From an uncultured Candidatus Saccharibacteria bacterium (GTDB lineage: Bacteria > Patescibacteriota > Saccharimonadia > Saccharimonadales > Saccharimonadaceae), in the NCBI GenBank assembly GCA_947428935.1, contig CANENS010000002.1:1-64000 (forward strand): DNA of 64,000 nucleotides, read 5' to 3'. The notes under the pieces were generated by a model, which was given only the letters and a program-made list of their open reading frames with translations, had not been told where the DNA came from and did not search any database. A program made the translations under genes and the position numbers. Below, in pieces: positions 10,273-33,674 of this stretch (position 1 is its first letter; each line of letters begins with the position of its first letter).

Positions 10273-10482
10273 TGGCGATAGCGAGAGGATTATGTCTTGC
10301 TAACGCAAGCCATTTCGCTGGGCGTCGGCTCGGAAAAGTTTGAACAGGCTCGACTTTTCACTCGCCTCCTACAGCGACCGAACCCAACACTAACGTGTTT
10401 CGGTTCGCAATCCATCTTTGATCTTAATCAAATAAAATAAATCCCGAAAAGGGATTTCTTTTATTTGGCGGAAGCGAGAGGA
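10273..10482 (-). repeat. tRNA-end hairpin element, distal unit behind tRNA-Ser
   Basis: Second ~200-base unit after tRNA-Ser. On the minus strand it has an imperfect large hairpin (arms with GTGAAAAGT / ACTTTTC), a small hairpin CTTGC-GTTA-GCAAG, then a degenerate copy of the tRNA-Ser 3' end (TCCTCTCGCTATCGCCA, 10273-10290, two mismatches). Unit spacing is 193 bases from the next copy. Confidence 0.6.
10427..10457 (-). terminator. Terminator after the duplicated tRNA-Ser end
   Basis: On the minus strand AAATCCC-TTTTC-GGGATTT is followed by TATTTTATTTG. It directly follows the second copy of the tRNA-Ser 3' end at 10466, as a terminator follows a tRNA. It may be the original tRNA-Ser terminator before element insertion. 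Confidence 0.75.
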
Positions 10483-10670
10483 ATGGAATTACTAACGTAA
10501 TTCCTTGACCACAGTCGTAGCGTCTAAAAAGTGAGCAAGCTCCCTTTTTGACTACAGCCACTCCTGCGTGACGAACCTCGCCTGCGGCGTCGGTTCTCAT
10601 CCTCTCGTATTTGAGTTAACTTAGTGTAAAAACAAGCCTCATTGGCATTCGGCTTGCGTTTATACTAAGT
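10466..10670 (-). repeat. tRNA-end hairpin element, proximal unit behind tRNA-Ser
   Basis: Starts at the CCA end of tRNA-Ser and ends in an exact 17-base copy of that tRNA end (TCCTCTCGCTTCCGCCA, 10466-10482). Between them, on the minus strand: GCAGGAGTGGCTGTAG, a degenerate hairpin with CAAAAAG/CTTTTT arms, GGTCAAGG, and a perfect small hairpin GGAATTAC-GTTA-GTAATTCC. The same order is seen behind tRNA-Val. This looks like a small element that targets and duplicates tRNA 3' ends. Confidence 0.7.
10627..10657 (-). terminator. tRNA-Ser terminator
   Basis: Minus strand hairpin CAAGCC...GGCTTG followed by TTTTT, 14 bases after the tRNA-Ser CCA. Confidence 0.7.
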
Positions 10671-10760
10671 TGGCGGAAGCGAGAGGATTCGAACCTCCGG
10701 TACGGGAAACCGCACACACGCTTTCCAAGCGTGCTCCTTAAACCACTCGGACACGCTTCC
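10671..10760 (-). tRNA. tRNA-Ser (GGA)
   Basis: Reverse complement: acceptor GGAAGCG/CGCTTCC, anticodon stem ACGCT-TGGAA-AGCGT with anticodon GGA, a long class II variable arm (GTGTGCGGTTTCCCGTACC region), T loop TTCGAAT, discriminator G and encoded CCA. Reads TCC/TCT codons. Its 3' end is duplicated twice downstream. Confidence 0.97.
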
Positions 10761-29531: not shown

Positions 29532-30152
29532 ATGATAAAAATTGTGACGGGTGACGACCGAGTTGCGACGCAGAAGTTGATTAAACGTGAATTGGGGCCT
29601 AATTATGAGCTATTTGAGGGGGATAAATTGGCAAAAGCGGATTTATCGGATATTTTTCGCGGCACTTCGTTGTTTGGCACCGAGGAGCGGCGTATTTTGC
29701 TGAAAGATTTGAGTGAGAATGCGGAGGTTTGGGACGAAATTGAACAATATTTGGACACTGAGCACAAGGTGATAATCTGGGAGACAAAACTTGATAAGCG
29801 TTCGGTGATTTATAAGAAGTTGAAGGCTGAGAGGATTGAAATCCAGGAGTTTACTGGCCAGAAAGCGCCAGATATTGGGGCGGTGTTTGGGATTTTTGAT
29901 ACTGCGATGCGAGATGGCACGCGCGCGGTGAAGATGGCGAAAGAGATTGAGCTGACCAATGATCCGTATATGTTTTTTGGGTTGATGGTGACGCAGGTTT
30001 TGAAGAAATATCAGGTGGCAACAGGGGCGAATCGAGCACGGTGGACGCGGATTTTGCGTGCTTTGTCGGAGCTTGATATTCAGATGAAAACCAGCACTGT
30101 TGAGCCTTGGCTTTTGGTGGAAGGTTTTTTGTTTCGAGTTGGGAAGATATAG
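29532..30152 (+). CDS. holA: DNA polymerase III delta subunit-like protein
   Basis: 206 aa. Clamp-loader subunit that opens the sliding clamp. N-terminal IVTGDDRVATQKLIKREL, FRGTSLFGTEERRILLKDLSENAE and a C-terminal helical domain (LTNDPYMFFGLMVTQVLKKYQVATG, LRALSELDIQMKTST.EPWLLVEGFLF) follow the HolA pattern. It is much shorter than E. coli delta (343 aa), with a compact middle domain as in other CPR. Together with polA and mutM it forms a replication/repair run. Confidence 0.8.
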   Translation: MIKIVTGDDRVATQKLIKRELGPNYELFEGDKLAKADLSDIFRGTSLFGTEERRILLKDLSENAEVWDEIEQYLDTEHKVIIWETKLDKRSVIYKKLKAERIEIQEFTGQKAPDIGAVFGIFDTAMRDGTRAVKMAKEIELTNDPYMFFGLMVTQVLKKYQVATGANRARWTRILRALSELDIQMKTSTVEPWLLVEGFLFRVGKI

Positions 30153-30162
30153 GGTTTATCTG

Positions 30163-30235
30163 AACTTGTACATCCTGTACAAGTTCAACTCATTCTCATT
30201 TCTGTAAAATTGACTAGCTTTGAGGTTAATAAAAC
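30163..30235 (+). repeat. Palindrome-promoter repeat element, copy B
   Basis: AACTTGTACA-TCC-TGTACAAGTT (30163-30185) followed by a downstream block with GACTAGCTTTGA and AATAAA, matching copy A at 2638. It lies 11 bases after the holA stop and 170 bases before cassette 9. It may be a terminator or an operator. Confidence 0.6.
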
Positions 30236-30352
30236 TTTCTATAGTTTTGTCTTTCTTTTCCGAATCGACGACGGCTTTTATGTTTTCGTATTACGCACTG
30301 CGTCGGCTCGCAAGATAGAAAAGAACTTTTTATCTTTCTCGCTTCATTGTGC

Positions 30353-30556
30353 GTTCGCAGCGGGTTCGTCAATATCGGTAGCGGTCGTTTGGGGAGCTCT
30401 GGCCTCAACGGTTACGGATGGTCGTCGCGCAGCAATTCGTCTGATGTTCGTTATGCATACAACCTCACCTTCAATGCGTCTGGCGTCGGCCCGTCCAGCA
30501 ACAGCTATCGCTGGGTCGCCCTCCCCCTCCGCTGCCTAGCTAGACAGTAATAAATA
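30353..30556 (+). repeat. Variable cassette, copy 9
   Basis: Head GTTCGCAGCGGG, standard tail. Open frame SGFVNIGSGRLGSSGLNGYGWSS, NSSDVRYAYNLTFNAS, GPSSNSYRWVALPLRCLARQ stop. No start codon in frame at a sensible distance with a ribosome site. Repeat element B lies upstream on the same strand. Confidence 0.85.
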
Positions 30557-33422: not shown

Positions 33423-33597
33423 TGGTGGGTCGCGAGGGGCCGGCTTTTCTGCAGAAAAGCCTTGACCGCAGGAGTGGCTGTAGCTCAAAAAGAAAACTTG
33501 TTTGCTTTTTGAGCTACAGCCACTCCTACGTTACGCACACATGTTGATTTAATCCGCCTACAAAACAAAATAAAGTCCCAAAGGACTTATTTTATTT
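33423..33597 (-). repeat. tRNA-end hairpin element behind tRNA-Val
   Basis: Lies between tRNA-Val and an exact 18-base copy of its 3' end (33423-33440). Inside, on the minus strand: a terminator, GTAACGT, a perfect 23-base inverted repeat (AGGAGTGGCTGTAGCTC... at 33470-33492 against 33505-33527), GGTCAAGG and a perfect 20-base palindrome (33442-33461). The order matches the elements behind tRNA-Ser. Confidence 0.75.
33560..33590 (-). terminator. tRNA-Val terminator
   Basis: Minus strand AAGTCC-TTTG-GGACTT followed by TATTTTGTTTTG, directly after the tRNA CCA. Confidence 0.8.
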
Positions 33598-33674
33598 TGG
33601 TGGGTCGCGAGGGGCTCGAACCCCCGACCTTCTCGGTGTAAACGAGACGCTCTAGCCAGCTGAGCTAGCGACCC
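33598..33674 (-). tRNA. tRNA-Val (UAC)
   Basis: Reverse complement: acceptor GGGTCGC/GCGACCC, D arm GCTC...GAGC, anticodon loop TTTACAC (anticodon TAC), T arm GGGGG-TTCGAGC-CCCTC, discriminator A and encoded CCA. Reads GTN codons. Confidence 0.97.

Follow-up and report, generated by a model that had tools for sequence, protein, structure and literature searches.

We lean toward the view that the two tandem units behind tRNA-Ser(GGA) in this window (the whole 64,000-nucleotide stretch analyzed here, part of contig C2 of genome G000, which comprises 1.10 Mb in 27 contigs) belong to a family of small mobile elements, non-coding and non-autonomous, that target tRNA 3′ ends for insertion in Saccharibacteria of the ruminant gut and are moved by trans-acting strand transfer. 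On our best reading, this tRNA-tail-targeting family is new, and its mechanism matches no known mobile system. A search of open-access papers found no earlier description of these elements, although one may exist elsewhere. If this interpretation is correct, epibionts with reduced genomes carry an active, gene-less element family that can dock at most of their tRNA genes, does so with no recognizable enzyme, and leaves the tRNA unharmed.

The host gene, identified by ARAGORN and by the Rfam tRNA family, is intact and lies at 10671..10760 on the minus strand, as do both units; the end that is duplicated corresponds to its last 17 to 18 nt (10671-10688). Unit 1 (10466-10670, 205 nt) opens with a terminator-like hairpin, T1, that abuts the CCA (10618..10670, recognized from sequence). 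It is followed by an inverted copy of the tRNA-Ser T-arm, CGAGAGGATgaGAACC (10592..10607), a tRNA-specific arm of 16 nt that complements GGTTCGAATCCTCTCG of tRNA-Ser itself at 88%. Next come the 5′ piece of the T-arm in direct orientation, GGTTCG, and a large core hairpin (10504..10577), which is a variant with GTGGCTGTAG..CTACGAC and scores 22.6 bits with our covariance model, R1. A small hairpin recognized by sequence and folding, GGAATTAC-GTTA-GTAATTCC (10485..10504), precedes the duplicated tRNA-Ser 3′ end (10466..10482), which matches at 17 of 17 positions. Unit 2 (10273-10465, 193 nt) repeats this layout. Its terminator-like hairpin (10431..10465, from sequence) abuts the CCA of the first copy, and its inverted T-arm, GGATTGCGAACC (10402..10413, from sequence), is decayed. 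GGTTCG and a core hairpin with conserved TAGGA / GACGCC internal loops follow at 10309..10384; this core scores 76 bits with R1, a value that is not independent because the core is among the nine training sequences of the model. The small hairpin CTTGC-GTTA-GCAAG lies within 10293..10312 (sequence and folding), and the tRNA-Ser end at 10273..10289 is decayed, with 15 of 17 matches. The initial annotation had described two tandem units of these sizes, each with a large hairpin, a small GTTA-loop hairpin, and a copy of the tRNA end, exact at 10466 and with two mismatches at 10273, and all of this is borne out. It did not mention the terminator-like hairpin at the start of each unit, the inverted T-arm, a second unit-bearing tRNA gene (tRNA-Val), or the recurrence of the arrangement across the genus. 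The tRNA-Ser flank with both units folds far more stably than shuffled sequences (z = -8.3).

The second unit-bearing host in the window is tRNA-Val(TAC) (33598..33674, minus strand, ARAGORN). Its unit (33423..33597, same strand) has a terminator at 33562-33597, a palindromic core at 33467-33530, a small hairpin at 33442-33461, and an exact copy of the tRNA-Val 3′ end at 33423-33440 (18/18). This unit is 95.6% identical to the one behind tRNA-Lys(TTT) on contig C12. The initial annotation had suggested a scan of all tRNA 3′ flanks for the same order. Using ARAGORN tRNA calls, we found that 9 of the 44 tRNA genes in this genome have a copy of their own last 17 nt, with at least 15 matches, within 500 nt downstream (copies 110 to 390 nt downstream), compared with 0 of 44 upstream. 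When tails of other isotypes were searched on the same flanks, at least 15 matches occurred in 8 of 1,810 comparisons; given both controls, the copies are not due to chance. The carriers are Ser-GGA (with two tandem units), Ser-CGA, Ser-TGA, Lys-TTT, Lys-CTT, Arg-GCG, Val-TAC, Gln-TTG, and Thr-CGT, with Leu-CAA and Tyr as weaker cases, and the arrangement recurs across the genus.

Outward from the tRNA, the order of a unit is a terminator-like hairpin right behind the CCA, an inverted T-arm, a three-base loop with the direct T-arm piece, the core hairpin, the small hairpin, the tRNA-end copy, and then the next terminator. The terminator is present in every unit, and orientation is nearly fixed. 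Units encode no genes and range from about 50 to 205 bp; core-less ones are as short as 65 to 67 nt, copy included. Minimal units of about 80 nt with the copy consist essentially of a terminator and a hairpin resembling an acceptor/T-stem minihelix with CCA, and compact Ser units likewise resemble such a minihelix behind a terminator. The inverted T-arm typically carries a two-base change (GGATgaGAACC versus GGATtcGAACC), and the direct piece is GGTTCG, or GGTTCA or AGTTCG where the host tRNA reads so.

Both arms are matched to their tRNA. Inverted arms agreed with their own host at 6.67 of 8 positions of an 8-mer, compared with 5.24 after shuffling (0 of 300 permutations). With an 18-nt window this test was weak because the left segment is cut at the core, and shorter windows were then chosen; all four window lengths tried gave 0 of 300. 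For the direct arm, the 7-mer values were 6.49 and 5.61 (0 of 1,000 permutations). The predicted fold of fresh units is a closing stem, formed by the inverted arm and the copy, with three hairpins. Its mean predicted free energy was -55.3 kcal/mol with the unit's own arm and -50.3 with swapped arms, a mean gain of about 5 kcal/mol, and the own arm beat the swapped mean in 31 of 40 units. At the sequence level, the inverted T-arm and the GGTTCG piece are clearly tRNA specific, and they are predicted to pair with each other and with the copy.

The limits of the duplication are sharp. Across 40 units, the right copy matched the host tRNA at frequencies of 0.95 to 1.00 at positions 60 to 76, 0.82 at position 59, and 0.30, the chance level, at position 58. 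The left direct piece, compared in the same way in 40 units, matched at 0.97 to 1.00 at positions 52 to 57 and at 0.11 at position 58. Since the match drops at position 58 on both sides, the two pieces amount to a pseudo-tRNA 3′ half broken exactly at A58. The duplication thus spans 17 to 18 nt, tRNA positions 59 to 76, lacks A58, and ends exactly at CCA; past CCA there is no continued identity, tandem units excepted. The copy is perfect in 31 of 65 units, a duplication of 17 to 19 nt is also found in 14 of the 16 units without a core of the model type, and units with copies of at least 14/17 involve 13 isotypes.

The core hairpin is a structured and narrowly distributed element. Among 98 distinct copies recovered with the covariance model, 95% of pair cells were paired and 15 of 16 pairs showed two-sided changes. 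Covariation was 0.642, compared with 0.193 in shuffled alignments and at most 0.126 with slid partners, in an alignment fitted to the model; with a MAFFT-only starting alignment, the values were 0.635 and 0.253. Covariation of this kind demonstrates strong base-pair selection on the predicted fold. The conserved letters are those of the internal loops (TA, GA, GA / GA, GA, GCC), and the flanking helices vary. In the apical stems, G.T outnumbers A.C (41 versus 22), which suggests that the tRNA-sense strand is the folding strand. A search of 23 loci against Rfam 15 at a lax threshold found no family beyond tRNA and rRNA at the gathering score, the other matches being attributable to chance. R1 matched 29 places in our genome. 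Among 60 relatives, it matched most genomes of the same genus and gave one marginal match among 24 genomes of other families. When the exact core pattern was searched in 84,980 species representatives, about 75 of 80 among the loci listed belonged to Saccharibacteria, and the remainder of those listed were single high-G+C matches, as expected by chance. Matches in named genomes were to Candidatus Saccharibacteria, chiefly from the guts of ruminants and other herbivores, and 2.9 million viral contigs contained no match to the pattern. The core is essentially restricted to Saccharibacteria. About 70% of the pattern-derived matches lie directly behind a tRNA gene, and most of these have a copy of that tRNA's own end, typically 18 to 25 nt past the core.

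Related cores also occur away from tRNA genes. In the window, one lies at 30287..30361 on the minus strand (R1 search, E = 4e-6), at the edge of a silent FISUMP-like cassette, and cores occupy the 5′ edge of such cassettes at loci L106, L107, L109-L111, L114, and L121 as well. These cassettes are silent, promoterless C-terminal segments (..VRSGFI..GYGWS..NRWxGFPLRCLARQ), found at 1-1027 and 30150-30520 of the window and at L106, L107, L109-L111, and L114. They lie dispersed through the genome, several of them downstream of a tRNA gene and many bearing a core hairpin at the 5′ edge, and they look like a gene-conversion reservoir. In three genomes (L079, L084, and L085), a core lies just upstream of the 23S rRNA 5′ end, where it is possibly part of the rRNA processing stem. 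Cores are also found beside the -35 TTGAC of putative dnaK and clpC heat-shock promoters with CIRCE-like operators (L087, L088, L125, and L132); these promoter-side cores have a short direct repeat on both sides, for example GCACTCTTGAC. Given its occurrence at 23S rRNA genes, promoters, and cassettes, the core may be an independently mobile hairpin module that the tRNA units adopted.

Comparison of orthologous sites among draft metagenome assemblies shows that units are present in some genomes and absent from others. In about 51 genomes, tRNA-Val(TAC) has an exact or near-exact copy in 16 and none in 34. Filled and empty tRNA-Val(TAC) sites share the same genes on both sides in L291 and L293 (proteins 86% and 65% identical), and further filled/empty comparisons with shared flanking genes are L268 with L293, L305, and L292. 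At tRNA-Ser(GGA), the readable genomes divide about evenly between filled and empty sites. Units also move between species: L126 (G006) and L127 (G018) carry the same Val element, identical at 170 of 171 positions, next to a neighbor protein that is only 44.6% identical. The acceptor stems of these two hosts differ (ATCACCC and ACAACCC), and in both the distal copy agrees with the resident tRNA. Five pairs in which similar elements occupy unlike hosts are informative, and in all of them the copies have the host's letter wherever the position is diagnostic; the pairs include Val/Lys within our genome and Val/Glu between genomes, and they are not fully independent since two share one partner. 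Insertion polymorphism at orthologous tRNA genes, transfer between species, and a duplication of host type are thus established.

There are exceptions to the last of these. In L129 (tRNA-Val of G010), the distal copy reads ACAACCC and the host ATCACCC; the copy equals the tRNA-Val end of other species. It is a fossil or a foreign end, and an element-borne copy may apply to some events. Two Tyr units share a CCA-to-CTA change in the distal copy, which, like the L129 copy, hints at element-borne ends. Tandem units recur, and the distal one is often more decayed. Besides tRNA-Ser(GGA), they occur at L077 (downstream of tRNA-Leu(CAG)), L207, and L186; the second unit of L077 is an almost exact repeat of the first, which indicates a recent duplication of the whole unit. 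Serial insertion, as proposed in the initial annotation, gains support from these tandem units together with the filled and empty sites. The same annotation had considered that flanks fixed in all relatives would instead point to an RNA-processing signal; this fails because orthologous sites with both flanking genes conserved are found filled and empty, units occur in tandem, and near-identical units are present in distant species.

We looked for an enzyme whose distribution follows that of the elements. Cas1 is present in 6 of 60 genomes and absent from most carriers; our genome's Cas1 belongs to a CRISPR locus (L074, G000:C9) with a Cas9-like end, Cas2, a Csn2-like ORF, and 66-nt spaced repeats. 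No RVT_1 reverse transcriptase was found in our genome, to which this search was confined. No intact Y1_Tnp match was found in 36 genomes of the genus, and fragments occur only in G000 and G040; one is a broken Y1 (IS200-type) transposase pseudogene at G000:C8:52024-52364 (L312), in two pieces with a stop in each frame. At least one PF00589 tyrosine recombinase is encoded in all but three of the 60 genomes. Of the five matches in our genome, three were set aside; they come from regions (C21, L122; end of C4, L124) where short tyrosine recombinases accompany Firmicutes-like genes and which are probably bin contamination, and the assembly seems to hold some foreign contigs. Overall, a Cas1/casposase, a Y1 transposase, a dedicated tyrosine integrase, or, in our genome, a reverse transcriptase showed no pattern fitting a mover.

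In the scenario we favor, the element would travel as a folded single strand, and its tRNA-complementary arm would recognize the T-arm of the tRNA gene to be entered. A strand-transfer enzyme acting in trans would then open that gene between A58 and A76, leaving an 18-nt stagger. Filling of the gap would double the host's own tRNA end, so that the tRNA would stay intact and be followed by the element's terminator. Tandem arrays with the oldest unit furthest off would build up as such events recur. Saccharibacteria are naturally competent (PMC10633639), and single-stranded DNA taken up from other species would explain how units reach them. Four points stand against this scenario: the tRNA-specific arms seem to need refitting whenever the target changes, a feature that simple transposition leaves unexplained; no enzyme was found that tracks the elements; the distal copies of L129 and of the two Tyr units hint at element-borne ends; and some cores lie away from tRNA genes, hence another habitat for the core. 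More tentatively, the units might represent a class of elements that retarget through their tRNA-complementary arms and renew an 18-nt copy of the host tRNA, whether through strand transfer guided by the T-loop or through tRNA-primed copying stopped at m1A58; they would then be gene-less tRNA parasites, guide directed or similar to LTR retroelements. With its exact limits at 59 and 76 and a copy that follows the host, the mechanism lends itself to direct testing, and cultured, naturally competent Saccharibacteria offer an available experimental system.

A dedicated enzyme would be dispensable if units, once taken up by natural transformation, spread mainly through homologous or homology-facilitated recombination anchored in the tRNA genes, and if selection for a functional tRNA, together with mismatch repair or gene conversion, fitted the copies to the host. 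We consider this rather unlikely. The competence of Saccharibacteria (PMC10633639), the movement of units, terminator included, between the same isoacceptor across species, the empty searches for a mobilizing enzyme, and the foreign distal copy in L129 all agree with it. Against it, the stretch from GGTTCG through the core to the small hairpin is almost unchanged between Val and Glu units (about 96%, read off the alignment), although their arms and tRNA ends differ. In addition, the sharp limits at A58/59 and A76 are hard to obtain from microhomology alone, and the copy is perfect in nearly half of the units (31/65).

The position of the break suggests another route, namely, copying primed by a tRNA, in the retroviral manner. 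The strand opposite the copy would serve as an 18-nt primer-binding site for the host tRNA, the polymerase would stop at (m1)A58, and the product would recombine at the tRNA gene. In retroviruses, m1A58 stops plus-strand synthesis and sets the 18-nt length of primer-binding sites. Since the duplication ends at position 59, at this very stop point, the model is a real rival: it predicts the 3′-terminal 17 to 18 nt without A58, a classical primer-binding-site length, and it directly accounts for host-following copies, because copying the tRNA 3′ end up to (m1)A58 would renew the copy from the host tRNA in every round. We nevertheless judge it improbable: our genome has no RVT_1 reverse transcriptase, and the fixed distance from T-loop to CCA gives any 18-bp duplication measured from the end the same look.

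The initial annotation implied a classical attachment site, at which a tyrosine recombinase would insert a small circle whose attP bears the tRNA 3′ end, displacing the original end downstream. The choice of tRNA 3′ ends, which are the usual attachment sites, the tandem serial layout, the nearly fixed orientation, the wide occurrence of tyrosine recombinases (all but three of 60 genomes), and the distal copy of L129 would suit such integration. Yet this model is not supported and is very unlikely: both copies follow the host in 5/5 informative pairs, many isotypes are used, each with its own end, and the T-loop sequence beside the distal copy is not conserved. Moreover, in most carriers no more than one conserved Xer-type recombinase, of the housekeeping kind, is encoded, and in G044, which bears elements, none was detected. 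Least credible is a cis-acting RNA element of the tRNA transcription unit (a 3′-processing signal or back-up minihelix), one that descends vertically and is renewed through local duplication and fold-back replication. Such an element would fit the terminator-plus-minihelix layout of the minimal units (about 80 nt), the strong pairing, the G.U bias, and the terminator in every unit but is opposed by patchy presence at orthologous sites, by a near-identical unit in distant species, by the same core at promoters, before 23S rRNA, and at gene cassettes, and by the terminator preceding the hairpin, so that little of the hairpin should be transcribed with the tRNA.

Several known systems share parts of this behavior. 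Phages, ICEs, and satellites with tyrosine integrases also exploit tRNA 3′ ends, of which a direct repeat remains after integration, whereas the units described here are far too small, lack an integrase, involve many isotypes, and have a copy that follows the host tRNA. Integron cassettes and their attC sites likewise involve folded single-strand hairpins and serial insertion at a fixed site, the oldest furthest off; in contrast, our units lack cassette genes, and their “attI” would be any tRNA. No attC-like GTTRRRY/RYYYAAC layout was seen by eye in the units, and the PF00589 search identified no integron integrase. REP/BIME elements, with their RAYT (Y1) transposases, and bacterial MITEs are similarly short, non-coding, palindromic, non-autonomous, and numerous per genome. 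The units differ from them in being tied to tRNA ends, in their long host-derived duplication and target-matched arms, and in the absence of an intact Y1 transposase from the genus.

Mitochondrial mobile hairpin elements (double-hairpin elements and sponge RHEs) are also gene-less hairpins with presence/absence polymorphism whose enzyme is unknown; neither duplication of tRNA ends nor tRNA-matched arms are known from them. The primer-binding site of LTR retrotransposons and retroviruses is an 18-nt match to a tRNA 3′ end that is likewise bounded by position 58. Unlike these retroelements, our units have no LTR or, in our genome, any reverse transcriptase found, and they adjoin the tRNA gene itself. 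In target choice, the best-known analogue is provided by casposons, with which the units share a duplication of the tRNA 3′ end (here 17 to 18 nt, positions 59 to 76). Family 2 casposons, such as that of Aciduliprofundum boonei, target tRNA genes at the 3′ end, where they produce a 14- to 15-bp target duplication, and their casposase recognizes the leader motif TCAAATC located 8 bp upstream of the duplicated sequence (PMC6614799). We note that this motif resembles a tRNA T-loop. Casposons possess terminal inverted repeats and genes for Cas1-solo and PolB, whereas the units described here are gene-less, show no terminal inverted repeats at their junctions, and mostly reside in genomes without Cas1; their duplication ends at CCA, they use many isotypes, and they carry arms matched to the tRNA behind which they lie.
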